Of a stretch of DNA of 64,000 bases, positions 39,022 through 59,332 are shown piece after piece. The position numbers and the translations under genes are program-made. This DNA is from Bacteroidota bacterium (GTDB taxonomy: Bacteria; Bacteroidota; Bacteroidia; NS11-12g; UBA9320). The stretch lies in NCBI GenBank assembly GCA_016124755.1, contig WGNA01000011.1, forward strand, positions 310,688-374,687. Direction: 5' to 3'. How positions within the stretch are numbered: position 1 is the first letter of the stretch; each line of letters starts with the position of its first letter. Below the pieces are notes generated by a model. That model ran no database searches and was not told the origin of the DNA. It was given only the letters and a program-made list of their open reading frames with translations.

Positions 39022-40434
39022 TTATAACATGGTTGTCGGACAAACATAATCCGTTTTCGCTAAAGAAGAATTTTTCAATGCGCTGAAACCACCGGCAATA
39101 TCCACCAGATTATGGTAACCTCTGGACTTCAGAATCGATGCGGCAATCACAGAGCGGTAACCACCGGCGCAATGCACATAGAATGTTTCATCTTTTGGAA
39201 ATTCCGCCAGATAATCATTCAGATTGTCAAGAGGAGTATTGTTCGAATCAACCAGATGTTCGCTGAAATATTCGCTTTCTTTTCGCACATCGAAAATCGG
39301 ATGTTTGTGATGTGCATATTCTTTTTCAAAGGTCGGAACGTCAATCGAATCGATCGAATCCACTTCCATTCCGGCATCTTTCCAGGCCTGAAATCCGCCT
39401 TTGAGATAACCGATTGTCTTGTCAAAACCCACACGGGATAGTCGCGTAATTGCTTCTTCCAAACGATCTTCATCTACCACCAGAAGAATCGGCTGATTCA
39501 CATCTTTTATCAATGCGCCGACCCACGGAGCAAATCCGCCGTCGAGTCCGATGAAGATGGAACGCGGAATAAATCCTTTCACAAATTCCGATTGATGACG
39601 AACGTCTAAAACCAATGCCTCGGTTGAATTGGCCGCTTCGTCAAAAGCTTCCGGAGAAAGCGCCCGGCTTCCCTGAGCCAATACGTCGTCAATACTGGCG
39701 TAACCTTCCTTATTCATTTTCACATTCATCGGGAAGTAGCCGGGAGGTGGCATTAATCCGTCGGTAACTTCTTTTACAAATTCGGCTTCGGTCATATCAG
39801 CCCGCAGAGCGTAATTCATTTTTTTCTGGTTTCCGAGAGAGTCAACCGTTTCCTTCATCATGTTTTTACCGCAGGCAGAACCGGCACCGTGACCCGGATA
39901 AACCGTAACATCGTCGGGCAAGGTCATGATTTTATCGCGCAAACTGTGAAACAAAGTTGCAGCGAGTTGTTCTTGTGTCATGCTTGCAGCTTTTTGCGCG
40001 AGATCAGGTCGGCCAACATCGCCGAGAAATAGTGTGTCGCCGGAGAAAATGGCGTTTTCTTTTCCGTCTTCATCGATGAGCAACCACGTTGTACTTTCCA
40101 TCGTATGCCCAGGAGTGTGCAGAGTTCGCATCGTAACCTTACCGATTTTAAATTCCTGATAATCTTCGGCAACAATGGCTTTAAAACCGGGATTTGCTGT
40201 TGGACCGTAAATAATATCCGCACCGGTTTTGTCGGCGAGCGTAACGTGACCGCTCACAAAATCGGCGTGGAAATGCGTTTCAAAAATGTAATTGATTTTT
40301 GCGTTCGACTTGGCAGCTCTGTCGATATAAGGCTGAACTTCGCGAAGAGGGTCGATGATAGCGGCTTCTCCTTCGCTTTCGATGTAGTAAGCACCCTGTG
40401 CCAGACATCCGGTATAAATCTGTTCTACGATCAT
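39022..40434 (-). CDS. CstB-like persulfide dioxygenase-rhodanese fusion
   Basis: A 470-residue three-domain protein. Residues ~1-240 are a metallo-beta-lactamase fold with 'ETHFHADFVSGH' (His54, His56, Asp58) and 'GHTMESTTWLL' as in ETHE1/CstB persulfide dioxygenases. Residues ~260-360 are a rhodanese-homology domain without catalytic Cys. Residues ~370-465 are an active-type rhodanese with Cys422 in 'YVHCAGGYRSV'. This order equals staphylococcal CstB, which oxidises persulfides to thiosulfate. A general MBL-rhodanese fusion is the cautious name. It is transcribed from an excellent promoter at 40576-40603 and sits beside a Crp/Fnr regulator with suggestive cysteines. Confidence 0.88.
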   Translation of the reverse strand: MIVEQIYTGCLAQGAYYIESEGEAAIIDPLREVQPYIDRAAKSNAKINYIFETHFHADFVSGHVTLADKTGADIIYGPTANPGFKAIVAEDYQEFKIGKVTMRTLHTPGHTMESTTWLLIDEDGKENAIFSGDTLFLGDVGRPDLAQKAASMTQEQLAATLFHSLRDKIMTLPDDVTVYPGHGAGSACGKNMMKETVDSLGNQKKMNYALRADMTEAEFVKEVTDGLMPPPGYFPMNVKMNKEGYASIDDVLAQGSRALSPEAFDEAANSTEALVLDVRHQSEFVKGFIPRSIFIGLDGGFAPWVGALIKDVNQPILLVVDEDRLEEAITRLSRVGFDKTIGYLKGGFQAWKDAGMEVDSIDSIDVPTFEKEYAHHKHPIFDVRKESEYFSEHLVDSNNTPLDNLNDYLAEFPKDETFYVHCAGGYRSVIAASILKSRGYHNLVDIAGGFSALKNSSLAKTDYVCPTTML

Positions 40435-40575
40435 TGTTTATGCTTTAAAGATCTGTTTTAAGTATTTTGTTGAAGCTTTCAAAATATAGCCGTCAGGATC
40501 AGAGACGAATTTAACGAAGTATGTGACCCTGCTAAAAGTTCAACGGCATTTTTGAATTAGCTTCTAATTCATTGA

Positions 40576-40603
40576 CAAAAGTAGGATCCCATTTGTTTTT
40601 CAA
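40576..40603 (-). promoter_or_regulatory. Promoter of the CstB-like gene
   Basis: On the minus strand TTG (40603-40601), 17-nt spacer and TACTTTTG (40583-40576), both exact. It gives a ~135-nt leader before the start at 40434, long enough for regulatory sites. Confidence 0.7.
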
Positions 40604-40684
40604 TCTGCAACCGATGTTACGATCCGCACTGATTGTTGTCATTGCAAAGTGGGATTTCGGACGTACGAACGATGAACGCGTCGG

Positions 40685-41335
40685 TCACAAATGCGCGAGG
40701 TTAATCACATTGCGCTTCTGACTGATCAAACCGTCGGTTTCTAATTTTTTCATCACCCTGGAAATCACAACTCGGGAGCTGTGCAAATCATTCGCGATTT
40801 CGTTGTGTGTTATTGCCAACGTTTTATTCCCGGTTACCATCACTTTGTCGCGGAGGTAGTTCATAATGCGTTCTTCCATATTATTGAACGCGAGGTTATC
40901 GATAGCGGCGAGCATTTCGTTCATCCGGTAATTATAGGTTTCCAGGATAAACGAGCGCCACGAGGAGAAACGGGCCATCCAGCTTTCCACCAGATCAATC
41001 GGAATCATCAGAACGGTGCAGGGCGATTCGGCGACTGCACGCACCTTGCTCTTCGACGCCTTCGTGCAACAATTAATGGTAACGGCGCAAGTGTCACCGC
41101 TTTCGAGATAATATAGCAGCAGCTCGCGGCCTTCCTTGTCTTCTGTGAGAATCTTTAACGAGCCTTTAATAACTAATGGTAAAAAGTCGATGTTGTCGCC
41201 AATGTCGATCAGCAATTCGTCTTCTTCAATATTTTTTGATTTGGCAACCTTCAGAATTTCCTGAACCAGATCTTGTTCAAGTATTTGGGAGAATCGCTCC
41301 TCCACCAATTGGGCAACGGCATTATCAAGTGACAT
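40685..41335 (-). CDS. Crp/Fnr family transcriptional regulator
   Basis: A 216-residue regulator with an N-terminal cyclic-nucleotide-binding-fold domain (about 25-140) and a C-terminal winged HTH (about 150-215: 'LAITHNEIANDLHSSRVVISRVMKKLE'-type helix pair, in parts). The Fnr N-terminal cysteine cluster is missing, and the phosphate-binding cassette of true CRP is not conserved. Four cysteines lie in the sensor domain (Cys83, Cys89, Cys90, Cys106: 'GDTCAVTINCCTK'), a pattern I associate with Bacteroidota regulators next to sulfurtransferase genes. It probably senses thiol or persulfide stress and controls the CstB-like gene just downstream on the same strand; this is inference. Confidence 0.85.
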   Translation of the reverse strand: MSLDNAVAQLVEERFSQILEQDLVQEILKVAKSKNIEEDELLIDIGDNIDFLPLVIKGSLKILTEDKEGRELLLYYLESGDTCAVTINCCTKASKSKVRAVAESPCTVLMIPIDLVESWMARFSSWRSFILETYNYRMNEMLAAIDNLAFNNMEERIMNYLRDKVMVTGNKTLAITHNEIANDLHSSRVVISRVMKKLETDGLISQKRNVINLAHL

Positions 41336-44194: not shown

Positions 44195-45763
44195 TCACCA
44201 ATAGCTACCCATTTCTTTTTCTAATTGGCGAATCCACGCGTCGGTTATGCCAAGGGAATCCTGATTTACCCACGTGACTTTGCCGTACGTCGCATCGGTT
44301 AAGGTGAGTTCCGGAATCGATCCGCCGATGTATTCGCCTTTGTTTCCGGCGCGGGTTACAATGGTTGTGAGCCAGAAAAATCGTGTTTCGCCGGCGATGT
44401 TGCGGATAAACGGTCGAGACTCCGCCGGATAATTCTCAGACCAATCGTAATTCTTTCGGCTCTCCACAATCTTAGCCGGAACCGCGCTGCTGCCGATGTA
44501 AGAATGACTGTCTTTCCGGTGTTCAATAAAATAAATTTTACTGTCGGAATCACCCGGAATAAACAAACTCAGACTCAACCCTTTTTTCTCGGGTTGATAG
44601 GGTTCGAGTCCGAAGTAATTGCAAATTTTTCCGCCTTCCACATTCAGGAAAACCACGAATGGCTGAGATGCCGAAATATCGTCGGCAGCCGGAATGCGGA
44701 TATCTCCTTCGTGATAACCCGGCATTGGTGCAAAAAATCCGTTGGTAAACCGAAAGCTCTCGGCAATATTTCGGGCAACAACCGGCGGAATGAGGTTTTG
44801 TCCCTGAAGGTATTTATGCTGATTTATTTCATCCGGAGCGATGTAATGTCCTGCTCCGAACAACACCCGATTTGCCCACGTATCCGATTCTTTTTTCTGA
44901 TCAATTACCACAACTCCGCCGAAAACCGGACGCGGGAAAACCCAGCCTTTCCAACGAATCAACGGAACCACCTGAACCCATTCGCCCTTTTCGTTCTGCA
45001 AATACATCGGCTCGCTGGCTTCGTAGCTGAAAAATCGGGAAAGCGAAAATCCCCGCCGGATTGCATTGTCGGTTTCTTTTGAAAACAACAACAATTCTCC
45101 GATTTCAAAATTTACTTTATCGCGGTATTTAGCCGAAAAAACCGGAGCCGGTAAATGCGCCGGAATGCGAATCACTTCGTACATGTCTTTTCGCATTTGC
45201 TGAATGCGGTATTCTTTGCTCGGACCCACAGCCGAACTGTAATAATACATGTCGTCTTTTCCCCGGATAAATTTGGGAAATGTTGCGTCTTCGGTTTCCG
45301 AAAGCGCTTCCTGATTAATTAATGTTTTTAAAGAATGAACCGGCTGAATACGCTCGTGTCCTGTCTCGGGTAAGCCGTTTAAAATTACTTTATCCAGCTC
45401 ACCGTAATACATATACAGTTTCAGATAATTGTGAACCGGCGGCCCAACAAAGATCATAAAAGCTAAAAAGGCCGAAATAAAAATAGTAGGTAAAATGCTG
45501 CCTTTAAACGTGCGTTTTCGGATCACGCGCCAGTACCACGTCATCATTAAAAACACAAACAGAATTAACAGACTGTATTTGCGAATCCATAAAACGGCAG
45601 GTTGATACGATGCCCGGAAATACAGTAGGGCGGCAACTAAGAGTATTAAAATGAGTGCCGAAATAATCTTGTATTTCTTAAATAGGTTGCCGATCGCGGT
45701 CGCAATTCCTTTTCGGATATTCCGGAAGAACCAGTATAAACGGTTGAATTCTGTTTCTGTCAT
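44195..45763 (-). CDS. Operon gene 6: membrane protein with large soluble domain
   Basis: A 522-residue protein, the last gene of the six-gene operon. Three hydrophobic helices lie near the N-terminus (about 32-50, 58-75 and 88-106: 'IISALILILLVAALLYF', 'LILFVFLMMTWYW', 'FISAFLAFMIFVGP'). Behind them is a ~410-residue domain rich in aromatic residues, without a known catalytic motif. No family is recognised. It starts in an ATGA overlap with the upstream membrane gene (45760), so the two are co-translated and probably interact. The soluble part may be periplasmic or cytoplasmic; topology is not decidable here. Function unknown. Confidence 0.8.
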   Translation of the reverse strand: MTETEFNRLYWFFRNIRKGIATAIGNLFKKYKIISALILILLVAALLYFRASYQPAVLWIRKYSLLILFVFLMMTWYWRVIRKRTFKGSILPTIFISAFLAFMIFVGPPVHNYLKLYMYYGELDKVILNGLPETGHERIQPVHSLKTLINQEALSETEDATFPKFIRGKDDMYYYSSAVGPSKEYRIQQMRKDMYEVIRIPAHLPAPVFSAKYRDKVNFEIGELLLFSKETDNAIRRGFSLSRFFSYEASEPMYLQNEKGEWVQVVPLIRWKGWVFPRPVFGGVVVIDQKKESDTWANRVLFGAGHYIAPDEINQHKYLQGQNLIPPVVARNIAESFRFTNGFFAPMPGYHEGDIRIPAADDISASQPFVVFLNVEGGKICNYFGLEPYQPEKKGLSLSLFIPGDSDSKIYFIEHRKDSHSYIGSSAVPAKIVESRKNYDWSENYPAESRPFIRNIAGETRFFWLTTIVTRAGNKGEYIGGSIPELTLTDATYGKVTWVNQDSLGITDAWIRQLEKEMGSYW

Positions 45764-46290
45764 TTGTCGAGGAAGTCTTTTACGCCTTTTCGCCAGTCGT
45801 CACCTTTGTCTTTATCATCCTTTTTATCACTGTCGTCTTTTTTCTGCTCCTCTGGTTTTTCATCTTTCGACTCGATGGGAATCGTTACATTTTTATCTTT
45901 TATAGATTGTTCTATTTCGTCAATTCGCTCAATGGTATTTCGAATTTGCTTTATCTGCGGCTGAACGGATTTAGTAAAAAACGGAAATAAATAAAAACTC
46001 AGCATCATACCGATCAGCATGAGCGCCAGATAAAGTAATAATTCAAAAAAATTAATATTACCGGCTACATAAAATAACCATCCGATTGCCAAAGTCATGG
46101 TTACCGCCGGAACCAATCGTTTCGAAAAAGGTTGCTGAAACAAAAAAGTATGTTGAGAATCTTCCGGCAATCCGTCTTTGTGTGTGAGTTTGTACCACGA
46201 CCGGTACCAGAATAATCCGCGTTTACGGTCGAAAAATGCAAATGCAATCCCGACAATTAAACCAACAAGAAGAGGAAGTAATGTGCCCAT
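45760..46290 (-). CDS. Operon gene 5: small membrane protein with charged tail
   Basis: From the ATG at 46290 the protein has 176 residues; the upstream frame to 46380 would overlap gene 4 and is unlikely. It has one N-terminal helix ('LLPLLVGLIVGIAFAFF'), a pair of central helices (about 55-105: 'AVTMTLAIGWLFYVAG', 'LLYLALMLIGMMLSFYLF'), a helical linker ('IKQIRNTIERIDEIEQSIKD') and a Lys/Asp-rich tail ('DDSDKKDDKDKGDDWRKG'). No family recognised. The charged tail suggests a docking site for a cytoplasmic partner, perhaps the ATPase. It lies 11 nt after gene 4 and overlaps gene 6. Confidence 0.78.
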   Translation of the reverse strand: MGTLLPLLVGLIVGIAFAFFDRKRGLFWYRSWYKLTHKDGLPEDSQHTFLFQQPFSKRLVPAVTMTLAIGWLFYVAGNINFFELLLYLALMLIGMMLSFYLFPFFTKSVQPQIKQIRNTIERIDEIEQSIKDKNVTIPIESKDEKPEEQKKDDSDKKDDKDKGDDWRKGVKDFLDK

Positions 46291-46301
46291 AGTAATGCAA
46301 T

Positions 46302-47567
46302 CTATTGAGTTATCTGCTGAAAAATAAAACGGTGTTCTAAAATGGTTTCCACTGCCCACTCCTGAAAATCCTCTTTCCATTTTCCGTATTCGGCATAAAA
46401 TCCGGATTTGTCGAAAAGGTATTTTATCACAACATCGTTATCGTGTTTGCAGGCGAGCAAATGCCATAATACAATTTTATCGTTTTGGTTAAGGTGTGGC
46501 GCGGGATACAAAAGATCTTCTTTTATTATTTCCGGAATTTCAAACGTTTGCCGGTTTTTGATTTTTAAAACCAGACGTTCCAATTCAAAATATTTATCAT
46601 TTAAAAGCGATTCGGAAACAGCGGCTTGTACCAGCATTTTCGTATGTGTTCTCTCATTGTTACCGGTTGGAATCAGTTTTTTGAGATTTCGACAAGCTGA
46701 CATCAGCATCGTCATCATTTTTAATTCAATTAAATACGGATGTCGAATATAAAAATCAGCGTCGTTTTCGAGCAGGCCCTGTTCGGTTAAATAGGGGAGG
46801 AGCCCGTTATCGCTCAGATTAAACTCCATCTGGTCGTGGTGTTTTTCTCCGCTGATTTCAGATGAATTATTTTTAAAAACCAGAAGCGGTCTTTTATTTT
46901 TTAGATTTCTGAAAACATACAAACCATCAAATGCCAGCGTATAAAACGATAAATAATTTCCAAACGGAATCGATCGCAATTCAATGGAGCGATATCGCAG
47001 ATCACCGAATTCGTTGCTGCTGTTGATGATGGCTTCCCGCAGTTTCGCATCGGCCCACGCATTTTCTTCCACCATAAATTTGTGAATGAGATTGCGCTGT
47101 TCCCGGGCCGCTTCCATTATTCGGTCAACCGTATTAAAATGAATCGTAAACACGTCGATCATCAGTAAATCAGCCGGATGCCGGTATGCCGAAATCTCCT
47201 GATCGAGTTCAAACCAAATGGCGCTTTGTGTAGTAATGTCTGTTATCTGTTCACCGTATTCACTGAAAATTCGTTTGTGAACATCCCAGTCGAACGTGTG
47301 AAACGGATGATAAATAGAGGCGTTTTGCTGTTCCGGACTAATAATAATTCCATACGGATTTGCCATGCCGTGCGACAGATAAAACGTGTTTTTCTGTTCT
47401 TCCGCAACTTCCGGACTCCAGCCCCAGCCGTCGATGTGGAAAGATTTGAGTTGGGTTTTTTCTAATCCGATATCGGCTAAAGCAGAATTGTACCGATCCA
47501 CCATCAGTGATGTTTTCACCGGAACGAGCCGGTTTCCGAACAAACCCGATTCAATTAGTCTAATCAT
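46302..47567 (-). CDS. Operon gene 4: unknown protein of 421 residues
   Basis: Starts at the ATG 47567, eight bases inside the end of the ATPase gene; a longer frame to 47681 would overlap it much further. No signal peptide or membrane segment. The N-terminal half has 'HIDGWGWSPEVAEEQKNTFYL' (split), 'YGIIISPEQQNASIYHPFHTF' and 'DLLMIDVFTIHFNTVDRIMEA'-like strands and helices. The C-terminal half is helical and ends in 'WAVETILEHRFIFQQ'. I do not recognise a family. Tight coupling with the AAA+ gene suggests it is a substrate adaptor or structural partner. Confidence 0.78.
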   Translation of the reverse strand: MIRLIESGLFGNRLVPVKTSLMVDRYNSALADIGLEKTQLKSFHIDGWGWSPEVAEEQKNTFYLSHGMANPYGIIISPEQQNASIYHPFHTFDWDVHKRIFSEYGEQITDITTQSAIWFELDQEISAYRHPADLLMIDVFTIHFNTVDRIMEAAREQRNLIHKFMVEENAWADAKLREAIINSSNEFGDLRYRSIELRSIPFGNYLSFYTLAFDGLYVFRNLKNKRPLLVFKNNSSEISGEKHHDQMEFNLSDNGLLPYLTEQGLLENDADFYIRHPYLIELKMMTMLMSACRNLKKLIPTGNNERTHTKMLVQAAVSESLLNDKYFELERLVLKIKNRQTFEIPEIIKEDLLYPAPHLNQNDKIVLWHLLACKHDNDVVIKYLFDKSGFYAEYGKWKEDFQEWAVETILEHRFIFQQITQ

Positions 47568-49518
47568 GAATTCTTCCGGATCGTAATTCTTCTGAAGCTT
47601 TCTGTTGAATATACAAGCGTTTTGCCGTTTCCCGAATTTCCCGTTGCATGCCGGTTTCATTAATCCGGATGGCGTTTTCAATATAATTTAATGCCTCGTA
47701 CAACCGGATGTCGGTAAACGTTGCGCCCCGCATATTTTCCTTCATTAAAACTTTTAGCATTTCCGCTTTTTCATCATACGATTTAAAAAAGAAATCGTCG
47801 GGATTTTCCCACCAGATTTCGGGAAGATCGAAGTCGATTATTCGAGCGTCAACTGCTTTTTGAATATTTCTCAAATCTCGCGAAGAGAAAAACGGATATT
47901 GATTTAAAACGGCATTATAAAATGCTCCGAAGAAATCCTGCGACTTCGGATCGAAATCTTTTTCGGCTTTTTTATAAATCCCTTTAATGTCGGAATTCGT
48001 GAATTGAAATTCTTTATTGACTAATTCACCAATAGTTTCCGGTTCTTTTTGCGCATCCATATAATGATACGTTCGCGGATCGCTGGCATCGATAAATTTA
48101 TCGTCGAGTTCACTGTATTTCTTCCACCACAAATAATCCTGATCGATAAAATCTTCGGGTGACGTGGCGCCGTTCATGGAAGCGCGCATCTGAATCCGGG
48201 ATAAAACCGCTTTATCAACCTGATCGGGAATATTGGTGAAAAGCGAAATCAAACGGTTTCCGTAATTGATGGCGTACGCACCTTCGGTATTCCGCAGAAA
48301 AACGCCGATAAATTCCCGAACGCCGGCCGATACACCTTGACGGGTTCGTTCTTCTAAATTGTTTTCTGCGTCATCAATGGGAGCGAAGATGATTTTTCCC
48401 GGATCCTGCATCGGTTTAAACCACTCCATTGCCCGCTCGGCCGTTCCGCCCTGATAAGTCGAAACGATGTTTTCGGGAAGTGGCCAGAACAAAAACGGAT
48501 AACCCAATTGCTCGCAGCGTTCTTCGAGAATGGTTGCCGTTGCTGCGATGAGCATACTTTTTCCGGTTCCGGGTTTGCCGTCGGCCATAGTGATGGAAGG
48601 CAATCCGCCCAACGCATTCATCGGATTTTTCTTCGCTTCAAAATCATAACAAAGCATCCGCTCGGCGTATCGCTTAAAGAGGTGCTTTGCCTGTTTGTTC
48701 GCCACAATGTCTTCCATCCTCGTGGGGTTGAAAGCCATTCCTTTAACCGAAACCGAAATCTGCTGATCAAATCCCTGAACGGTGAATTCCTCACCTTCGA
48801 GTTTGTAATGATTGTTCGTAAAAATATCGGCGTATTTCAGAGCTTCACGGCGCATCTGAATTTCTTCTGCAAGTCGTTCGAAATACAAAGAAGTAATGCG
48901 CAATAAGTGCAGATCGGTGTTAATGATTCCGGATCGTTCGAGATACGCTGCGTAATAATACAGCGAACATTGAATCGCTTTCGAAGGCCGCGTTAACGAC
49001 ACTTCGGGTATTCCACTAAAGTCAATATTGATGGAAGATTGTTCGTCTTCCTGAATGCTTTTTACTTTAAAAGCGATGTACGAAGCGGCGGTGTAGATGA
49101 GAATTGCCGACTGGGTTTGTGACTTGTCGTGAAATTCGGGAAGGTCACTTTGATAAAGATTTCCGTCTTTATTTTTTTGCTGAAGAAGCTCTAACCCACT
49201 CGAAGTTCCATACAAATTCGAAAGATATTTTCCGATGCAATAACCCCGTCGAATTGCATTGAGAACCTGGTTGCAAACATTCGATAAAATTACCCGGTCG
49301 TCGCTGATGCGAACTGCATTTTTTAAAACCGACAACTGATCTTCCTCATTCCCGAGTGCTTTGGAAGCCTGGGTTAAAAAGGTAAGATCGATTTCTGATT
49401 TGGAAGATTTCCGGTCGGGCATCCAACCGACGGTTTTGAGATAGCCGGTGACTTCCTCGCGGAATTCGTGCAGGTTTTCGTTGCGTATTAGTAATAATGA
49501 CGAATCATTCTTCTCCAT
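47560..49518 (-). CDS. Operon gene 3: classical AAA+ ATPase
   Basis: A 652-residue protein with a ~270-residue helical N-terminal domain and one AAA+ module (about 275-460). Walker A is GKPGTGKS at 314-321. A pore-loop/helix segment 'STYQGGTAERAMEWF' (353-367) aligns in style with the 'GESExxVRxLF' stretch of Vps4/FtsH-like AAA proteins. Walker B is 'IIFAPIDDAENN' (376-387), with Asp383 where the catalytic Glu is expected. Sensor 1 and the arginine-finger helix are 'FTNIPDQVDKAVLSR' (427-441). The C-terminal ~190 residues are helical. It overlaps gene 2 by 14 bp and gene 4 by 8 bp. Likely a remodelling ATPase; the target is unknown, possibly the coiled-coil protein of gene 1. Confidence 0.85.
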   Translation of the reverse strand: MEKNDSSLLLIRNENLHEFREEVTGYLKTVGWMPDRKSSKSEIDLTFLTQASKALGNEEDQLSVLKNAVRISDDRVILSNVCNQVLNAIRRGYCIGKYLSNLYGTSSGLELLQQKNKDGNLYQSDLPEFHDKSQTQSAILIYTAASYIAFKVKSIQEDEQSSINIDFSGIPEVSLTRPSKAIQCSLYYYAAYLERSGIINTDLHLLRITSLYFERLAEEIQMRREALKYADIFTNNHYKLEGEEFTVQGFDQQISVSVKGMAFNPTRMEDIVANKQAKHLFKRYAERMLCYDFEAKKNPMNALGGLPSITMADGKPGTGKSMLIAATATILEERCEQLGYPFLFWPLPENIVSTYQGGTAERAMEWFKPMQDPGKIIFAPIDDAENNLEERTRQGVSAGVREFIGVFLRNTEGAYAINYGNRLISLFTNIPDQVDKAVLSRIQMRASMNGATSPEDFIDQDYLWWKKYSELDDKFIDASDPRTYHYMDAQKEPETIGELVNKEFQFTNSDIKGIYKKAEKDFDPKSQDFFGAFYNAVLNQYPFFSSRDLRNIQKAVDARIIDFDLPEIWWENPDDFFFKSYDEKAEMLKVLMKENMRGATFTDIRLYEALNYIENAIRINETGMQREIRETAKRLYIQQKASEELRSGRIHD

Positions 49519-50620
49519 GTTGTCGGGTATAGATGTATGGCGGTATCGATAATTTTTTGAGTTCTTCCGGGAAGCTCGAATTGAGGTGTTGCAGAACTCT
49601 GTGCGATGTGATCATGTACCGGAAAACCTTCGACACCATGCGGTCGATACATTCTTTATTCGCATCATCAACATAAAAAATCTGGCGCAATTCTCCTTTT
49701 GATAAAAAGCTTCCGGACTTTCGTTCGCCGGTTGAAAAAATCAGTTCGCTTTCGTAGGTGAAAATAAAATCATCGCGTTCAAATTCATCTTTCAACAGTT
49801 TCGTGAACGGATGTTCATCCATGGAATAATGCCCGTAAATCGGGCCGAAACCGGTGCGCTTCAGAATTTTCGGTTTAATGGATTCCCAGCCGTTATCGAT
49901 GTCGGAAGCGATCACTTTCAACGGCGCTGAATTGTGGGTGATGTGCCGGATGTTCTCTTCGAAAAACTCCGAGAGTTTGTCTTCCGAGCGATTAACTTTT
50001 CCGGCCATCGGGTTGTCGAATACCAACAGATAAACAAACGGACGGTTGGTCACCGAATCGAATGAAGCCCAACTGTACATAAACCGTCGGGTTTGTTCGG
50101 CATCGTTCAGATTTTTTATGAGTTGAAGTCTACCGGGAGAAAACTCGGTGAAGTGCGATTTTTTATAGAGATCCGTGTAATACTGAACCCGGCTCATTTG
50201 CTTTAACAGATTTTGCGGATGAGTTTTATTGCGGATGAGCGTATCGAGGATTTCATTTTTTAAAGAACCGGCTGCCGGAAGATCGTGGAGTTTTTCCTGT
50301 CGTTTTTCGATGTCGTCGTTCAGCCGTTTGAATTCCAGAAAATTCGGAAAGCCTGATTCGGTGGTGTCGACCAACATGGGCTGATCTTCACTAAAAGCGT
50401 ATTTCATCCCGAATGCTTCGATCGTGTTCAAAAACCGTTGGGCAAAATCCTGTAACACCGAAATCTCGTACGGATTATCGCTCTGGATTTGCGGAATGGA
50501 ACTCAGCAGCGAGTTGAGGGCAAACCGAACATATTCGAAATAATCTTCGTATGCATTGTCGCCCACCAGAACACTGCGGTCGTATTCGGTGAAGTGATTC
50601 GTTATGTCGATCGTTTTCAA
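49505..50620 (-). CDS. Operon gene 2: unknown protein of 371 residues
   Basis: No signal peptide, membrane segment or known motif. The N-terminal ~150 residues are helical ('NAYEDYFEYVRFALNSLL', 'EFKRLNDDIEKRQEKLHDL'). The central part has strand-like stretches ('NRPFVYLLVFDNPMAGKV', 'FIFTYESELIFSTGER') and a helix-rich end ('CIDRMVSKVFRYMITSHRV'). It lies 14 nt after gene 1 and overlaps the ATPase by 14 bp. In systems with a coiled-coil protein and an AAA+ ATPase, a bridging adaptor is common; that is only a guess here. Confidence 0.78.
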   Translation of the reverse strand: MKTIDITNHFTEYDRSVLVGDNAYEDYFEYVRFALNSLLSSIPQIQSDNPYEISVLQDFAQRFLNTIEAFGMKYAFSEDQPMLVDTTESGFPNFLEFKRLNDDIEKRQEKLHDLPAAGSLKNEILDTLIRNKTHPQNLLKQMSRVQYYTDLYKKSHFTEFSPGRLQLIKNLNDAEQTRRFMYSWASFDSVTNRPFVYLLVFDNPMAGKVNRSEDKLSEFFEENIRHITHNSAPLKVIASDIDNGWESIKPKILKRTGFGPIYGHYSMDEHPFTKLLKDEFERDDFIFTYESELIFSTGERKSGSFLSKGELRQIFYVDDANKECIDRMVSKVFRYMITSHRVLQHLNSSFPEELKKLSIPPYIYTRQHGEE

Positions 50621-50634
50621 GCCGGGCTCGACTT

Positions 50635-52008
50635 TCAGTCCATCAGGTTGTCAACCGAATCGTTACCGGATTTTTTGTTCTCCGGTTCCGGAGTCGGTTC
50701 GCCGCCGTCGCTTTCGTAATTAAAGGAGAAGGTTTCGCTCACATCGATTCCGAATTTACGGCTGTGCTCTTCCATAATTTTAGCGTCCTGCTCTTTGTAT
50801 TTTGCGGTAGCTTCGGCCATGGCAACGAGAACTTTGTGAAGCTCGGCCATTCGCTCCGGTTGTTTTTTGATGCGTTGAATTCGGTCTTTTTCTGAACCCA
50901 CAAACACCTTGGCAGCGATCTCGGTAATTTTCTGATCGGTCTTCACACCGGCTTCTTCATAAATGGAAGCCGCTTCCTGAGCCGTTGCGGATTGAATCAA
51001 TTGCAAACCGGATTCATAAGTGGTTACCCTTTCTTCGGTGTCGCTTCGAAGCTGACCGATAAGTTGTTTGAGGTTGTTTTTGGTAGTGGTTTGCGCTTCG
51101 AGGTGAATTACAATCTGATCCACAAAACGCTCTTTTGATTGGAATATACCGAGGGCCACGTTGTATTTGCCCTTGAGTTCGGCGCGCTGTTCACGGAGGT
51201 CGGCGATCTTTTTTTGTTGAGCGGTGTATTCCGGACTGTTGTTCGGCAATTCGATGAGTTCGTTTTCGGAAGTTTTGAGTCGCGCTTCGAGTTCGTCGAG
51301 TTCCTTTTTGCGCTCTTCCATTATTCGGGCGGCTTTCTCTTTGGTTTCGAAAGCGAGTTCCTTCCGGTTTTTGAGAGCATCGATCTGCACCTCCACTTCG
51401 AGAATCATGTTCTCAACGATGGCCACCATTCCCTGAACCTGAGAAATAATCCGGTTGAGAGATTCCCCGATATCGGCATTTTTCAGCCTGTCGCGGTAAC
51501 GTCGGTTTGCTTCGGCTTCGGCAGCTTTAAGCGCTTCCACTTTCGCTTCGAGTTCCGCTTTGGTTGAACGCACTTTCCGGTTTTTATATCCAAAGAGGAT
51601 GTTCCAAGCGTTCGACATTTTGGTTGCGTCTTCGGCTTCTACTTCGGCTCTCTGACGCGCTTTGGTTGCATCCTGAACGAGTTTGGTTTCAGCGTCGTTC
51701 AGCTCCTGAAGTTTGGAAAACTCACCTCCGCAACTGTCGAGCATAGCTCTGAGGTGGAGCATAAGTTCCTGAAGATCGGATTCGGTTTGATCTACATCTC
51801 CGTTGAGCGACTCGAAGTTCGAGTTGATTATTCCGGAAATAATGTCTTCAGAAGATTTGTTGCCCTGGGCTGCTTTTTCAATTTCAGCTTCAATTTTGTC
51901 GAGTTTGCTGACTACGCTTTCACCCTTCTTTTTCTCGATCCGGGCTTTGAGTTCGGTAACTTTTTTGTCGTTGCCGAGTTGGTCGAGAAGATCAAAAGAA
52001 TCTGCCAT
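50635..52008 (-). CDS. Operon gene 1: long coiled-coil protein
   Basis: From the ATG at 52008 ('MADSFDLLDQLGNDKK') the protein has 457 residues. A TTG at 52035 could add nine more, but it lies inside the exact -7 box (52033-52040), so it cannot be translated from that promoter. The sequence is almost entirely alpha helical with long heptad stretches ('ELEAKVEALKAAEAEANRRY', 'ERKKELDELEARLKTSENEL', 'KKIADLREQRAELKGK') and an acidic, disordered C-terminus ('EPTPEPENKKSGND'). It resembles PspA/TelA-type coiled-coil proteins in architecture, but I see no diagnostic motif of either. It is the first gene of the operon. Confidence 0.82.
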   Translation of the reverse strand: MADSFDLLDQLGNDKKVTELKARIEKKKGESVVSKLDKIEAEIEKAAQGNKSSEDIISGIINSNFESLNGDVDQTESDLQELMLHLRAMLDSCGGEFSKLQELNDAETKLVQDATKARQRAEVEAEDATKMSNAWNILFGYKNRKVRSTKAELEAKVEALKAAEAEANRRYRDRLKNADIGESLNRIISQVQGMVAIVENMILEVEVQIDALKNRKELAFETKEKAARIMEERKKELDELEARLKTSENELIELPNNSPEYTAQQKKIADLREQRAELKGKYNVALGIFQSKERFVDQIVIHLEAQTTTKNNLKQLIGQLRSDTEERVTTYESGLQLIQSATAQEAASIYEEAGVKTDQKITEIAAKVFVGSEKDRIQRIKKQPERMAELHKVLVAMAEATAKYKEQDAKIMEEHSRKFGIDVSETFSFNYESDGGEPTPEPENKKSGNDSVDNLMD

Positions 52009-52032
52009 CGTTTTTACGGTTGTTGTTTGTGC

Positions 52033-52040
52033 CAAAAGTA
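52033..52040 (-). promoter_or_regulatory. Bacteroidota -7 box of the six-gene operon
   Basis: TACTTTTG on the minus strand, exact TAnnTTTG, 24 nt before the ATG at 52008. No clear TTG -33 box. It decides the start of gene 1. Confidence 0.55.
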
Positions 52041-52771: not shown

Positions 52772-55700
52772 TCACCTATTGCTATCATAGTATTCCCATC
52801 CTGTGCCCTTACCATAATTAAAGTAGTAAGAGCCGAATAAAGGAAACAGGTCAATACTGTTCCTCCAAATCACTTCGTCGGAATTATAATTAATCTCACT
52901 AATATGAATTTTCTGTTGCAGGTATCCGGTTTTGTATATGTCAGGTGTTTCCAGATGAGTCATTCCATCTGGTGCACACGAATTTTTAATGGCAGATATA
53001 GCTTCTAAATTTCCCTGATACCAAATTCCAATTTTATGATCATTATGATATTCTCCGGTTTCGGTTAAACGCCCCTGAGCATCGTAATAAAACCAAATTC
53101 CATTCTTTTTGCCATTTAGAATGGTGCCTTCTAATCTACGATTTCCGTTGTCATAATATTCATATACTTTACCGGAATTGTTTGTGATCAATTCTTTTCC
53201 GGTAGCATCCCACATGTTCAGATAAAAGATATTTTCGAAACTCACATCCAGATCCAAATTGCATTGATATTGTTGAAAGGCAGAAAGCACCAATCCTTTT
53301 AATGACATGTTGCCATTGGGATGCCAGGCGGTTATTTTCCCATAATATTTGATAGAGTCTCCATTAACCGGGTTGAAATAAATTCCTGTGGAATAATCTA
53401 TTTCTTTTAAAGGCCCACCGTTTATATCCCAGTGTTTCCAGGTGCCTTTTTTATATCCATTACTAATTGTTCCCTCTGATGCTTTTATTCCGTTTTTGTA
53501 ATAGAGAACATATTTTCCATTCTGTGTGTCATCGAATTGAAGTAAGCCATATTCTTCATTCAAAGAATTAATAAAAATAAGTTCTCTCAGGTCTTGCTTT
53601 AAAACAATGGGAAACTTTTCCGGGTTTTTATGGGTTTCAATAAATTCTTCTTCCAAATAAATGAGATCTGAATTCTCAAAATTAAATCTAGAGTCATAGT
53701 CATCACAAAATCCATTTATAAATATTGAGTGACCTGCGTAAAAAGCACTGTCCGCAATGCTATATACTACTTCGGCTTTTAATACTCCGGTTGAATAAAA
53801 ATAGCGCACGGTATCAGTTAAAAATCCATTTTCAATTCTTGCGGAAACCATGGTGTCGTCCAATCGGTTGCAGTACCAATATCTGCCTTGTGGAATGCCT
53901 TTATTTATAAATACGGATCCCCTTTCTTGGTAGGGAGTTCCGTACCATTTTAACCAGCCATCAACCGTGTCCTTGTGATAGTTTGTTTTGTAATCGATCT
54001 GACCGTTATTGCTAAATTTAATCCATTCTCCATCCAGTTGATTTCGTGTATAAGTGTTCAGGGAATACAGATCACGAAATGTTCCGTGCTTCTGCCCGTT
54101 CACATACGCACAACTGAATGTAAACAAATTGGTAGTACCGTTACGCTTTTGATTTGAATAATGAACATAGTATTTCTCTTTATCAGTAAAAAATACAGAT
54201 TCAACCAATCCGTTTTTTACAAACAGGCGATAATTTACCGGATAGAAAAAAGCGTGATTTTTACAAATTTTCACATTTAATTCTAATGTGCTGGGGTTGG
54301 TTAGTACCATGGTGTAGGTCATTTCTGCTTCACTACTCTCAACAGTACTCAGATTAATGATTCCGGAAAAGGGTTTACCTTTAAGCCATATTTCATAGTT
54401 CAGTGTGTCAGCAGGTTGATATAGAATGCGGGCATGATGTAATACATGATCATATCTATTTGGATAAATCTTGCCCGGTTGGGTTTTTATTAAATACGAA
54501 TAACGAATGCACAATTCATGATTTTGATCCCAATCATTAATTGTGACTTCCAAATTCGAAGTGAGGCTGTCTGAACGTCTATAGTTGAAATCTCTGCAAT
54601 TTATCCCATTGTAAAAATTGTCATAGAAGCCCAATCCTGAGTGAAGTACGTAATTGAATACCTTTCGATGTGAAAGTAAGTGGTTTGATCGATTATATTT
54701 TCTATCGGTAGAATTTGGGGAATTCAGTTGGACTATGCCTATGCTATCGGGATATTTTAAATCCCAATACGACAGTTCCGAAGCATATTCACCGGATTCA
54801 GAAGAAAATAGCAGATTGCGATATAAATACACTTTGGTTTTCTGAATCTCTTTTTTACCCATAAAAGTTTTTCTAAATTCTGTTGAATTCATGGTAAACA
54901 GATGTTTATCTATGTCTGAACCAGCGGAACTGAATTGAATGGTTTGATAAATTGATCCATTCTTTCTGTAAAAATGTATTGGGTTTAGCGTGTCGGAAGT
55001 TCTGAAATCATATTTAAATTCTAACCGACCGTTTTTATGATATCTTGCCATAACAAGATTATCTGACCAGCTACTATTTATTGAAGCATTGGAAGCAAAT
55101 ATTTGACTATACAGGCAATTATTCCCTCCGTTCATTCGATATTGTTTTAAACTTCCGTCGTTGTGCCAGAAATATTCGTAACGATTAGAATCAGCACAAT
55201 CAAGCGCTATCATCACGCCCTTTTTATTAAAACGGATGAATGTTGTGTCTTTTAATTGCGGAGTATGAATCGTTTTTATTTTTCCATTTTTGAAATAACT
55301 GATTTCTTTCATACTTAACTGAACAAATTCGGTTTTCCCGTTCCTACTTGTTACCGTCGCAGTATCATAGAAAGATTCTTTCAAGATTCTTCCTTTCTCA
55401 TCATATTTGACCAAACGTCCGTTAATAAATCCATCAGAAACATCGCATGAATAAAGGATGTGTTGTTTGTAGGTGAGCGTCATTGATCCATTAACAGTAT
55501 CCGAATCGTAATGATAACTTAAGACATATTTGTCGTGGAATATTTTCCAATCACCTGTTTTACGGTCACGATCGTATTGTCCGCTTTGAATTAGTTTCCC
55601 ATCTTGATCATACCATTTAGCCGAACCGTTTTTCAAATTATCCCTGAAAGAAACTATTGCTGCGATGTGTGTTGTGTCCTTTTGTTTAATTCGCTCTTTA

Positions 55701-55981
55701 GCACCTGTTTTGCGAGCCTTTTGATAATAAATAATATAATCTCCGTCGGGCATTATAAAGGGGTTGTAAAACAAATTATGCTCAAACTGAAATTTTAGTC
55801 CAGTTGTGTAATTAAAATTCATGGTTTCAATACCGCTGGTGAACCATGGTTTGACACGTGCCGGATAAACAGAATATTCAATCCCCTGAAATTTTGCTTT
55901 TGGAATAATCAACTGTGCCCGCACCACTTGACTATTGAAAATAATTGAAAGGATAAAAGTGATGCGGATTGCCCTGATCAT
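52772..55981 (-). CDS. Secreted MORN_2/YwqK-repeat protein, paralogue 1
   Basis: From the ATG at 55981 (1,069 residues) it begins with a signal peptide ending 'NSQVVRAQ'; the frame extends to 56044 but without a signal. The protein is built of YwqK/MORN_2-type repeats, clearest in the C-terminal third: 'YYKNGIKASEGTISNGYKKG', 'WKHWDINGGPLKEIDYSTG', 'YDNGNRRLEGTILNGKKNG', 'YYDAQGRLTETGEYHNDHKIG'. N-terminal motifs 'WYDQDGKLIQSGQYDRDRKTG' are shared with the two upstream paralogues. Such repeats form extended beta solenoids. The automatic name 'YwqK antitoxin' would be misleading; no toxin is here. Location is probably periplasmic or outer surface. Confidence 0.85.
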   Translation of the reverse strand: MIRAIRITFILSIIFNSQVVRAQLIIPKAKFQGIEYSVYPARVKPWFTSGIETMNFNYTTGLKFQFEHNLFYNPFIMPDGDYIIYYQKARKTGAKERIKQKDTTHIAAIVSFRDNLKNGSAKWYDQDGKLIQSGQYDRDRKTGDWKIFHDKYVLSYHYDSDTVNGSMTLTYKQHILYSCDVSDGFINGRLVKYDEKGRILKESFYDTATVTSRNGKTEFVQLSMKEISYFKNGKIKTIHTPQLKDTTFIRFNKKGVMIALDCADSNRYEYFWHNDGSLKQYRMNGGNNCLYSQIFASNASINSSWSDNLVMARYHKNGRLEFKYDFRTSDTLNPIHFYRKNGSIYQTIQFSSAGSDIDKHLFTMNSTEFRKTFMGKKEIQKTKVYLYRNLLFSSESGEYASELSYWDLKYPDSIGIVQLNSPNSTDRKYNRSNHLLSHRKVFNYVLHSGLGFYDNFYNGINCRDFNYRRSDSLTSNLEVTINDWDQNHELCIRYSYLIKTQPGKIYPNRYDHVLHHARILYQPADTLNYEIWLKGKPFSGIINLSTVESSEAEMTYTMVLTNPSTLELNVKICKNHAFFYPVNYRLFVKNGLVESVFFTDKEKYYVHYSNQKRNGTTNLFTFSCAYVNGQKHGTFRDLYSLNTYTRNQLDGEWIKFSNNGQIDYKTNYHKDTVDGWLKWYGTPYQERGSVFINKGIPQGRYWYCNRLDDTMVSARIENGFLTDTVRYFYSTGVLKAEVVYSIADSAFYAGHSIFINGFCDDYDSRFNFENSDLIYLEEEFIETHKNPEKFPIVLKQDLRELIFINSLNEEYGLLQFDDTQNGKYVLYYKNGIKASEGTISNGYKKGTWKHWDINGGPLKEIDYSTGIYFNPVNGDSIKYYGKITAWHPNGNMSLKGLVLSAFQQYQCNLDLDVSFENIFYLNMWDATGKELITNNSGKVYEYYDNGNRRLEGTILNGKKNGIWFYYDAQGRLTETGEYHNDHKIGIWYQGNLEAISAIKNSCAPDGMTHLETPDIYKTGYLQQKIHISEINYNSDEVIWRNSIDLFPLFGSYYFNYGKGTGWEYYDSNR

Positions 55982-56046
55982 TGATGTTTTAGCTGAACTA
56001 TGTAGAAAGAGGTGGGGAGTAATAAAGGTCTTGAAATTTACCATTC

Positions 56047-59000
56047 TTAATACCGATAGCCATTCGATTCAATATAATAATAATCTCCATACAACGGAAG
56101 CAGCCTAAAACTTTGCTGGTTGATAATGTTTCCATTGACATAAATGTATTGAACAATATGAATGGGTTGTGTAATATAACCTGTGGATTCGGCATCCGGG
56201 AAATACGGCGGACTGATTTCGCCTTTCATGCACCGGTCGTAATAATGCGGAACAGCTTCCAGATCACCGGCTAACCAAGTTCCTGTTTTAATTCCGTTTA
56301 TGTAATTACCTACTTCCTCTAACCTGCCGTCGGGATCGTAGAACTTCCAAAGACCGTCCCGTTTTCCGTCTTTTATTTCCCCCTCTAATCTGCGGTTTCC
56401 ATTGTTGTGAAACTCGTAAACCCAACCGTTGTTATTGTGAAAAGTTTCTTTTCCGTTTTCATCGAAAAGTGAAAGATAAAAGAGATTTTCAAGCGAAATA
56501 TTCATTTCACGTTCACAACGAAATTGTTCAAATTGAGAAGTGATTAATCCTTTTAGAAGTGGTTTTCCGTTCGGGTACCACATCTCAATTTTTCCATAGT
56601 AATCAATGGTGTCGCCGGTATTTGGATTTACATAAATTCCAGTGTCATACGTAATCGTTTTTAACCTGCCTCCATTCAAGTCAAAATGTTCCCATGTGCC
56701 GGTTTTAAATCCGTTTGTCACATTTCCATGGGAGGCCAATACACCGTTTTTATAATAATAGAAATATTCACCGGAATTGTTAGGGTCGAAGCTGATGAAT
56801 GGCTTATTAAGATATTGATAGTTGCCGTCAAAACTTTTTAGGTCGCCGACTAAATGACGGTAATATACCGGCTCCAATACACCAGTTTTGGCGGTACTTT
56901 TATAGCTCTGAAATCCCCTTAAAAAAGCATTTTTCCCGGCAAAAAATACACTATCTTTTTGGCAGTACAACACTTTGCATTTAACTATACCTTCGGAATA
57001 AAAATATAAAGCAGTATCAACCAAATATCCGTGGTTTAATTTAGCCCAAACAGAAGTATCGTTAACAACTCCGCCATACCAGTAATAACCATGGGGTAGG
57101 CCCATGTCGATATAAACCTTTTCTTTCAGTTTTCCGGGCGTATGGTATTTGTAAAACCAACCATTTAAGGTGTCACGGGTGTAATAGGTTTTAACCTCAA
57201 TCTGATCGTGTAATACGGCAAAACTCCTTCTGCCCTGTGGTGACTTTACTTCCGAATGCAGATCATACTTTATGTACAATCCATTTAATTTCCCGCTGTC
57301 GTATTCCATTAATTCGCCGGAAGATTTGCAGGTTCCCTGTTTTACTCCGTGATCGTAATAGGCTTTTATCGCGTTCGGTGGATTGCCTATAAATGTTCCG
57401 TTCAACGCCGAATTATCGTAACCAATTTCACCCTTAAATAAGTTAGAAGACATGAATTTCAGATAGCCATTGTCAATTGTAAAATGGCTGGTTATTAGTT
57501 GATCGGTGAGTTCATATTCTCTTCCTGCAACCAGATTTAAGTTAACCAGATTGTTCACACCAACAACATAAGAAACAAAGGTTCCGGTTTCTGTTACCTT
57601 CATTAATTTGATTTTGTTGCTCTTAGAACGTTTCGTGGCACTGCTATAATCAATAGTCCCGTTTAATGGTTTTCCATTGTATTCAAATCGGAAATCGGGT
57701 CGTAATGGAATGGTATTAAGTGACCGGCCTTTTAAAGTTTCCGGACTTGTCACAAACATTTTTTCCGGATTAGCCTGAATGGAAAATTGATGAATAAGAC
57801 AGAATTTCTGATCGTCACTGTACTCCCTTTGGGTAATATATATTTTGTTGGAACCTGAAATAGAATCAATGGTGAAAGTAGTGAGTGGCAGAACTGCTCC
57901 TTTTTTATCTAAGTAAAACAATTCTCTGGCAACAAAATCCGTATGCAACAGATATAACTCCCGACTTAATACTCTTCTTTTTTTATTTCTTTTTAACTCT
58001 TTAAATCCATAATGGTCGGGATATGTTAGATTTAGAAATGTTGGGGACAAGATGGTGTCCGATCGGCCAAGACTATCATAGTTTACAGTCAGAATCGGGT
58101 AACCGGATTCCAGAAATACTTGTTCCTTTGATAGATATTTTATCTTTTGATTTGATTTTGCAGGTGAATAAACTTTAAATGCAGATAGCTTAAATATATA
58201 GATATCGTCCTTTTTATTAAAATGGATGAGCTCAAATTTCGCCGGTTCATCATAAGGCGGGAGGGAAAATATTATTTTTACAGGTAAGGTGTCTGTCGTA
58301 AAATCATATTCCGAGGTGATGCGACCATTCTTATAATTAATTTCCTTCAGGAAGGTGCTGTTTTTAGAAATCTGTTTAGTAAACCACCTGTGGAATTGCT
58401 GTTTCAACGTATCTTTAAAATCTGTCGAAGGTTCATTTGATGTTCTGGCTGAATAATATTGAAGGGTATCATTCGATATGATCTCTTCGTACCGAATGGT
58501 ATGCGATGGATTAAAATACGATAAATAACATATCTTGCCCGTATTGCTGAACAAGATATCAACGGTGTCTTTTGTAGGCGGATATCGCACTGAACTTTTA
58601 TTCCCGTTTATAAAAAACGTGGATTTAGCAGGACAGTCAATACAAGAGCCATCATAGACTACAAGAGCCATCATCCGTTTTTGGTCGTCAAATTGATATC
58701 CATCTCCGGTTTTTATGCCGTTTGTGTATGTGCCATATTCAAAAAGTATATCTTCAAAATAATTAAACCACATGCCATGAAGTAAATCATTGTGGTAATG
58801 ATATATTAAATGAAATTGGTTATTAATTATATTCCATTCTCCTGTTTTTTTATCATTGTCGAAATGGCCGGTTTGGATTATCCCTCCTCTATCATTATAC
58901 CAGATAACCTCACCGTTTCTCTGATTGTCTTTAAGGGAAAAAAGAATGGCAACAGTCAGGGTATCATATAGGTATTCCGATTTAGAACCTATATGATAAC

Positions 59001-59322
59001 CAATATACTCTCTGAACTTTTGATAGTAAATAACATACTTCCCATCCGGCACGCTAAACGGATTGAAACTTAGCTTTAATTCCTGGTCAATCATTGTTGC
59101 GTAACGTGACGAACCTGGATAGTTGTACTTGTAGTCTTTTATGTATTGCTTTCCATTCCAATTAAATCTGGGTAATCTGGCGGGATATACATTTACCTTT
59201 TCCCCGTGAAAATACACCTGTGTTACCGGCATTTGGGCAAACAGGTTATTTTTAGAAATGCAGCACAAGCAAAGAATAAAAATTGAGTAAATAAGATTTA
59301 TTCTCAGTTTGATGAATTTCAT
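56047..59322 (-). CDS. Secreted MORN_2/YwqK-repeat protein, paralogue 2
   Basis: A 1,091-residue paralogue with signal peptide (about residues 1-30, ending 'NNLFAQ'). N-terminal part: 'VYFHGEKVNVYPARLPRFN', 'NDRGGIIQTGHFDNDKKTG'. C-terminal third: 'YYKNGVLASHGNVTNGFKTG', 'WEHFDLNGGRLKTITYDTG', 'HNNGNRRLEGEIKDGKRDG', 'YDPDGRLEEVGNYINGIKTG'. 'PHYYDRCMKGEISPPYFPDAE' marks the shared tail. It lies 65 nt before paralogue 1 and 10 nt after paralogue 3. The tail is more like paralogue 3 than paralogue 1, so paralogues 2 and 3 look like the most recent duplication. Confidence 0.87.
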   Translation of the reverse strand: MKFIKLRINLIYSIFILCLCCISKNNLFAQMPVTQVYFHGEKVNVYPARLPRFNWNGKQYIKDYKYNYPGSSRYATMIDQELKLSFNPFSVPDGKYVIYYQKFREYIGYHIGSKSEYLYDTLTVAILFSLKDNQRNGEVIWYNDRGGIIQTGHFDNDKKTGEWNIINNQFHLIYHYHNDLLHGMWFNYFEDILFEYGTYTNGIKTGDGYQFDDQKRMMALVVYDGSCIDCPAKSTFFINGNKSSVRYPPTKDTVDILFSNTGKICYLSYFNPSHTIRYEEIISNDTLQYYSARTSNEPSTDFKDTLKQQFHRWFTKQISKNSTFLKEINYKNGRITSEYDFTTDTLPVKIIFSLPPYDEPAKFELIHFNKKDDIYIFKLSAFKVYSPAKSNQKIKYLSKEQVFLESGYPILTVNYDSLGRSDTILSPTFLNLTYPDHYGFKELKRNKKRRVLSRELYLLHTDFVARELFYLDKKGAVLPLTTFTIDSISGSNKIYITQREYSDDQKFCLIHQFSIQANPEKMFVTSPETLKGRSLNTIPLRPDFRFEYNGKPLNGTIDYSSATKRSKSNKIKLMKVTETGTFVSYVVGVNNLVNLNLVAGREYELTDQLITSHFTIDNGYLKFMSSNLFKGEIGYDNSALNGTFIGNPPNAIKAYYDHGVKQGTCKSSGELMEYDSGKLNGLYIKYDLHSEVKSPQGRRSFAVLHDQIEVKTYYTRDTLNGWFYKYHTPGKLKEKVYIDMGLPHGYYWYGGVVNDTSVWAKLNHGYLVDTALYFYSEGIVKCKVLYCQKDSVFFAGKNAFLRGFQSYKSTAKTGVLEPVYYRHLVGDLKSFDGNYQYLNKPFISFDPNNSGEYFYYYKNGVLASHGNVTNGFKTGTWEHFDLNGGRLKTITYDTGIYVNPNTGDTIDYYGKIEMWYPNGKPLLKGLITSQFEQFRCEREMNISLENLFYLSLFDENGKETFHNNNGWVYEFHNNGNRRLEGEIKDGKRDGLWKFYDPDGRLEEVGNYINGIKTGTWLAGDLEAVPHYYDRCMKGEISPPYFPDAESTGYITQPIHIVQYIYVNGNIINQQSFRLLPLYGDYYYIESNGYRY

Positions 59323-59332
59323 AATACTGAAA

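Follow-up and report, generated by a model that had tools for sequence, protein, structure and literature searches.

A conserved six-gene operon of Bacteroidota that may encode an AAA+ machine for remodelling a coiled-coil assembly at the inner membrane

Among ATP-driven systems that remodel coiled-coil membrane proteins, the best known is the ESCRT-III/Vps4 lineage (including archaeal CdvBC), which pairs a classical AAA+ ATPase bearing an aromatic pore loop with a coiled-coil protein bearing a conserved C-terminal peptide. The PspA/Vipp1 phage-shock protein (PSP) systems likewise combine a soluble coiled-coil protein with membrane partners and a nearby AAA+ protein, and PspA and Snf7 genes adjoin AAA+ ATPases in a survey of PSP systems (PMC11237479). 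Here we describe a six-gene operon of comparable composition at positions 44195–52040 of a 64,000-nucleotide stretch of DNA from a Bacteroidota bacterium (GenBank assembly GCA_016124755.1, contig WGNA01000011.1; the whole stretch is called the window below). The six genes are one functional unit, and there is a substantial, if less than even, chance that they encode one obligate, ATP-driven inner-membrane machine in which an AAA+ motor (gene 3) remodels an assembly of the coiled-coil protein (gene 1). The operon comprises the following features.

52033..52040, minus strand: -7 promoter box TACTTTTG, an exact match to the Bacteroidota TAnnTTTG, lying some 25 nt ahead of the ATG of gene 1
50635..52008, minus strand: gene 1, coiled-coil protein of 457 residues (orthologue alignment, AlphaFold2 (AF2) model)
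49505..50620, minus strand: gene 2, soluble protein of 371 residues from a new family (no convincing Pfam match among 29 members)
47560..49518, minus strand: gene 3, AAA+ ATPase with about 300 N-terminal residues of unknown type followed by a classical AAA domain (PF00004)
46302..47567, minus strand: gene 4, DUF6638 protein of 421 residues (Pfam PF20343, E 5.4e-37)
45760..46290, minus strand: gene 5, membrane protein of 176 residues with three transmembrane (TM) segments and a charged cytosolic tail ending DDWRKGVKDFLDK (hydrophobicity, alignment)
44195..45763, minus strand: gene 6, membrane protein of 522 residues with three N-terminal TM segments and a domain of about 415 residues (hydrophobicity, alignment)

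The locus shares with ESCRT-III/Vps4 the pairing named above, but profile comparison detected no homology of gene 1 to bacterial ESCRT-III (PspA), the Pfam matches of 31 gene 3 members (E up to 0.1) include neither MIT nor Vps4_C, and genes 2, 4, 5 and 6 are extra obligate partners. The likeness to phage-shock systems is similarly limited: gene 1 is unrelated to PspA/Vipp1 in profile comparison (hhalign probability of at most 1.6% in several combinations, and no PspA or Snf7 Pfam match) and, at 457 residues, is longer than its proteobacterial homologues (359–362 residues); gene 3 is a classical AAA protein and not a sigma-54 activator as PspF is; and there is no PspB, PspC or Toastrack. TelA (PF05816, tellurite resistance) is also a soluble coiled coil of similar size and occurs in some Bacteroidota, but hhalign against four TelA sequences gave gene 1 a probability of only 0.1–0.2%. 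The AAA domain of gene 3 lies nearest by profile to Cdc48/p97 and the proteasomal Rpt ATPases, with which it shares an aromatic pore loop and arginine fingers; unlike them, gene 3 has a single AAA domain, an unrelated N-terminal region, a Walker B motif with DD in place of DE, and fixed operon partners. Gene 4 is a full-length member of DUF6638 (128 bits against a Pfam cut-off of 27), an uncharacterised family, so that an earlier statement that genes 2 and 4 belong to no recognised family stands for gene 2 and needs amending for gene 4. For genes 1, 2, 5 and 6, neither Pfam nor NCBIfam contained a family that scored above cut-off. Relatives of genes 1, 2 and 6, when aligned, gave only scattered weak Pfam matches, sequence profiles of genes 2, 4 and 6 returned only noise from the Protein Data Bank (PDB), and literature searches on DUF6638 and on the six-gene set found no paper.

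Co-occurrence and distribution of the six genes

For an all-or-none test, profiles of genes 1, 2, 3, 5 and 6 were run against 32 genomes. Wherever gene 4 was present (eight genomes), each of the five was detected too, and none of them turned up in the 24 genomes lacking gene 4. For a single gene, a split as clean as this has a chance probability of about 1e-7 under the assumption of independent genomes; as these genomes are related, they are not fully independent. Five of the eight positive genomes had been picked for a broken operon, and none of the five has lost a member, every gene being kept once. A single-contig chromosome (G417) carries the set at three sites (genes 1–3 at 1.827–1.832 Mb, genes 4–5 at 2.584–2.586 Mb and gene 6 at 2.678 Mb), G451 has genes 1–4 and genes 5–6 on two contigs, the draft assembly G547 spreads the six genes over three contigs, and about 9 kb is inserted between genes 3 and 4 in G088 and G636. 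Retention of all genes after the operon has broken up indicates that they are held by function and not by linkage alone. Furthermore, the all-or-none pattern opens the unit to a direct test by single deletions, each of which would be expected to remove the entire function.

Carriers of DUF6638 are rare in the phylum sample (4 of 296 genomes, or 5 of 395 with a better profile) and more frequent in the window's own family (7/38) and in family f5, probably Flavobacteriaceae (87/300). A neighbourhood survey found the order of genes 1–6 intact, mostly with short gaps, in most f5 loci, in the window's own family, and in records from uncultured Bacteroidota and Chitinophagales, while the flanking genes vary from locus to locus. 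This conserved order, together with the all-or-none pattern, bears out the proposal made in a sequence-only reading of the window that the six genes act together. The pairwise distances of the six proteins are also strongly correlated (r 0.91–0.99 over 24 loci and r 0.70–0.91 within f5 alone). Genes upstream of the operon in f5 loci were rejected as extra members and are regarded as neighbours only, because by inspection they encode acyl-CoA dehydrogenase and ABC-F proteins. A NUDIX hydrolase gene between genes 3 and 4 was likewise rejected as a general seventh member, being present in four related f5 loci (L014 8902-9489, L016 9388-9981, L069 8029-8619 and L070 7906-8514) and absent from most, and is possibly a clade-specific seventh member in f5. 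In a further locus, L055 (G503), the operon is split between genes 3 and 4 by four genes (amidohydrolase-like, 750 residues; 133 residues; signal-peptidase-like, 232 residues; and 212 residues).

Within the window, six intact minus-strand open reading frames (ORFs) were confirmed, and the junctions match exactly those first reported (+14 nt for genes 1/2, -14 for 2/3, -8 for 3/4, +11 for 4/5 and -4 for 5/6). Genes 1–6 start at 52008, 50620 (TTG), 49518, 47567, 46290 and 45763, respectively, and the ATG at 52008, which gives gene 1 its 457 residues, agrees with orthologues starting MSDSFDLLDQ. The single exact -7 box previously placed in front of the operon was also recovered, as TACTTTTG is the sole minus-strand TAnnTTTG match from 40.6 to 53.6 kb. 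Its location exactly ahead of gene 1 is evidence for a promoter, though short of proof and suggestive only, because the whole window holds 36 TAnnTTTG matches; the motif is itself depleted there (63 ± 8 expected).

Relatives of the operon extend beyond the phylum. A tblastn search with gene 3 against plasmid and chromid records, from which the proteobacterial spread is known, returned matches in Vibrio and Rhizobiaceae at 25–28% identity over 79–92% of the protein. These loci share one order, namely coiled-coil protein, gene 2 homologue, ATPase and DUF6638; the coiled-coil gene that opens the Vibrio and rhizobial cassettes is a homologue of gene 1 (hhalign E 4e-15, probability 98%), and the gene 2 orthologues score 96–125 bits. 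Since Vibrio and Rhizobiaceae have genes 1–4 in an unchanged order, the earlier suggestion that the operon is specific to Bacteroidota is wrong. In two rhizobial loci (Sinorhizobium, Shinella), gene 4 is immediately followed by a gene for a DUF2333 membrane protein, and Vibrio has no adjacent membrane gene; given this and the recurrence of genes 1–4, the latter are the core, and genes 5–6 look like a Bacteroidota add-on or envelope module. DUF2333 was rejected as a relative of gene 5 or gene 6, being not detectably related in profile comparison, and is described in the literature from a Pseudomonas locus linked to the type VI secretion system, which is not the present system. On Sinorhizobium meliloti pSymB (L097 11923-13668), the ATPase and DUF6638 genes are separated by an endonuclease-domain gene and an ISRm16 element.

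A tentative remodelling mechanism and its rivals

The mechanism proposed here draws on short conserved segments in genes 1 and 3.

51982..51996, minus strand: gene 1, FDLLD peptide near the N-terminus, candidate docking motif (FDLL[ED] in 27/27 Bacteroidota orthologues)
51568..51606, minus strand: gene 1 residues 135–147, WNILFGYKNRKVR, a Trp/hydrophobic tip followed by a basic cluster (interface scale, helix break in the model)
50638..50649, minus strand: gene 1, NLMD peptide at the C-terminus, following a variable linker, a second candidate docking motif
48556..48579, minus strand: gene 3 Walker A GKPGTGKS, G314–S321 (GxPGTGK invariant across phyla)
48445..48462, minus strand: gene 3 pore loop 1 STYQGG with aromatic Y355 (S-x-[YF]-Q-G in all members shown, proteobacterial ones included)
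48364..48378, minus strand: gene 3 Walker B IDDAE, beginning I381–D383, where D383 replaces the usual catalytic Glu (across 33 sequences from two phyla, both Asp residues, D382 and D383, are invariant or nearly so)
48184..48198, minus strand: gene 3 arginine-finger region with R441 and R445 (each invariant or nearly so across the 33 sequences)

Gene 3 matches PF00004 (E 4.8e-8), as do 31 of 31 members, and its Walker A, Walker B, sensor 1 (N429, invariant or nearly so in the 33 sequences) and arginine fingers are those of the classical AAA clade, in agreement with its first assignment. Gene 1 had been described as a coiled coil of about 457 residues, which fits its all-helical AF2 model with a hairpin-like helix pattern, and it diverges least of the six within f5 (mean 18%, compared with 23% for gene 3 and 31–49% for the others). 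Its Trp-rich basic segment falls between two long helices, at a helix break in the model, and is the most interface-seeking 12-mer in 27/27 Bacteroidota orthologues (-2.0 to -3.9 kcal/mol, Wimley-White scale), which makes this tip a candidate membrane wedge. Residues 119–169, the Trp tip included, match PHROG 20011, a group of unknown function, at E 4e-5. Across the 27 Bacteroidota orthologues, the C-terminus keeps a conserved [DN]L[LM]x, usually in the form DDLL[GS]. Short peptides at disordered ends are typical docking sites, as in the MIM and similar motifs of ESCRT-III, and by analogy both terminal peptides of gene 1 may serve in this way. Hydrophobic segments number three each in genes 5 and 6, as anticipated for membrane proteins, and zero in genes 1–4. 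The C-terminal tail of gene 5 is predicted to be cytosolic, and the large domain of gene 6 to lie outside the inner membrane (basic cytosolic loops, positive-inside rule). Genes 2 and 4 would act as cytosolic co-factors. The AF2 model of gene 4 is confident (predicted local distance difference test (pLDDT) 89.4, predicted template modelling score 0.86), and a Foldseek search of it against PDB and viral structures (BFVD) returned nothing below E 1 (best PDB match E 1.7), so that DUF6638 is possibly a new fold with respect to the structures searched.

We propose that gene 1 coiled coils would assemble on the cytosolic face of the inner membrane with the Trp-rich basic hairpin tip inserted, and that a gene 3 hexamer would dock on the short terminal peptides, with gene 2 or gene 4 as possible adaptors. 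The aromatic pore loop would then pull gene 1 subunits through, and this pulling would disassemble or re-set the assembly, as Vps4 or Cdc48 does with its own substrates. In Bacteroidota, gene 5 would anchor the machine by its cytosolic tail and gene 6 would couple it to the envelope, as a sensor, by its large external domain; in some rhizobia, the DUF2333 membrane protein would take the place of genes 5–6. A role in membrane remodelling or envelope stress, as suggested in the sequence-only reading, would be in keeping with such a machine. The idea put forward there that a coiled coil is worked on by an AAA+ ATPase stays plausible (Cdc48/Rpt4/Vps4-like ATPase, aromatic pore loop, gene 1 tip). 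Profile-profile comparison found no homology of gene 1 to PspA/Vipp1.

Several points weigh against this mechanism. The gene 1 model is of low confidence (pLDDT 66), and the Walker B change from Glu to Asp could mean slow or altered ATP hydrolysis. Proteobacterial gene 1 is without the terminal peptides and its aromatic tip is weak or missing, hence these elements are not a universal mechanism; the absence of an adjacent membrane gene in Vibrio likewise sits poorly with it. Interaction between the proteins, polymerisation of gene 1 and its docking at the membrane are all putative, as are the identity of the substrate, the direction in which the reaction runs and a part in maintaining the envelope.

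The rival that survives best, which we consider unlikely though not negligible, is extraction or quality control of membrane proteins, with gene 3 threading client membrane proteins that genes 2, 4, 5 and 6 bring to it, and gene 1 serving as a scaffold or collar instead of being the substrate. The closest solved structures to the gene 3 AAA domain by profile (Cdc48-like, Rpt4, Vps4 and PCH2, with i-AAA protease ATPase domains also among them) include the client unfoldases Cdc48, Rpt4 and i-AAA, the two soluble co-factors could serve as adaptors, and gene 6 has a large external domain. However, the six proteins contain no protease domain and no protease gene recurs alongside, and the extreme conservation of gene 1 suits a specific substrate equally well as a scaffold. 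It is improbable that gene 1 is instead a true ESCRT-III/PspA- or TelA-type protein diverged past sequence detection, and the operon an ESCRT-like module by descent. The partnership of coiled coil and AAA+ ATPase, the hairpin-like helix pattern and the adjacency of PspA/Snf7 genes to AAA+ ATPases noted at the outset would fit such descent, but the hhalign probabilities against PspA and TelA profiles contrast with the 98% obtained for proteobacterial gene 1 orthologues, no Snf7 or PspA Pfam match appeared, and the gene 1 N-terminus is, by inspection, acidic rather than basic amphipathic. A Foldseek search with the gene 1 model, itself weak, yielded nothing below E 0.001, all of its matches being generic coiled coils such as BAR domains and axoneme proteins.

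The patchy spread across f5, the phylum sample and the window's own family is what might be expected of an AAA+-centred anti-phage or conflict system, and gene 3 has weak generic matches to the PADLOC models for IetA and the TRIP13 defence ATPase. We nevertheless regard such a role as hardly likely: nothing specific was matched among the PADLOC systems, no phage copies of gene 3 were found, the flanking genes inspected are mostly housekeeping (acyl-CoA dehydrogenase, ABC-F ATPase) with few mobile-element signs, and genomes with scattered genes keep them all, unlike a swappable defence island. It is very improbable, lastly, that gene 1 is the permanent scaffold of a structural or cytoskeletal complex of the envelope, with an ATPase that acts only once, at assembly, since the long conserved coiled coil and the membrane anchor genes would suit it but the aromatic pore loop and the two co-conserved soluble co-factors are left unexplained.

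On balance, the system would be a variant of AAA+ remodelling that may still operate in the manner of Vps4 or Cdc48, with a real chance of a new class. It is possible, if somewhat doubtful, that the operon represents a kind of bacterial membrane machine not described before, in which Bacteroidota and Proteobacteria share a core of four proteins, DUF6638 has a new fold, and ATP-driven coiled-coil remodelling at the inner membrane is independent of the ESCRT-III/PspA lineage. If so, it would be a second, unrelated solution in cultivable bacteria, a test case for the origin of such machines, and would give functions to several unnamed families together (genes 1, 2, 5 and 6 and DUF6638).

Neighbouring genes in the window

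Two further groups of minus-strand genes lie near the operon. At 39022-41335, a metallo-beta-lactamase/double-rhodanese fusion stands beside a Crp/Fnr-type regulator, a pair likely to be involved in sulfur or persulfide handling. At 52772-62608, three consecutive ORFs of 1090, 1091 and 1091 residues, of which the first contains MORN_2 repeats, have the appearance of a single large repeat protein copied in tandem.

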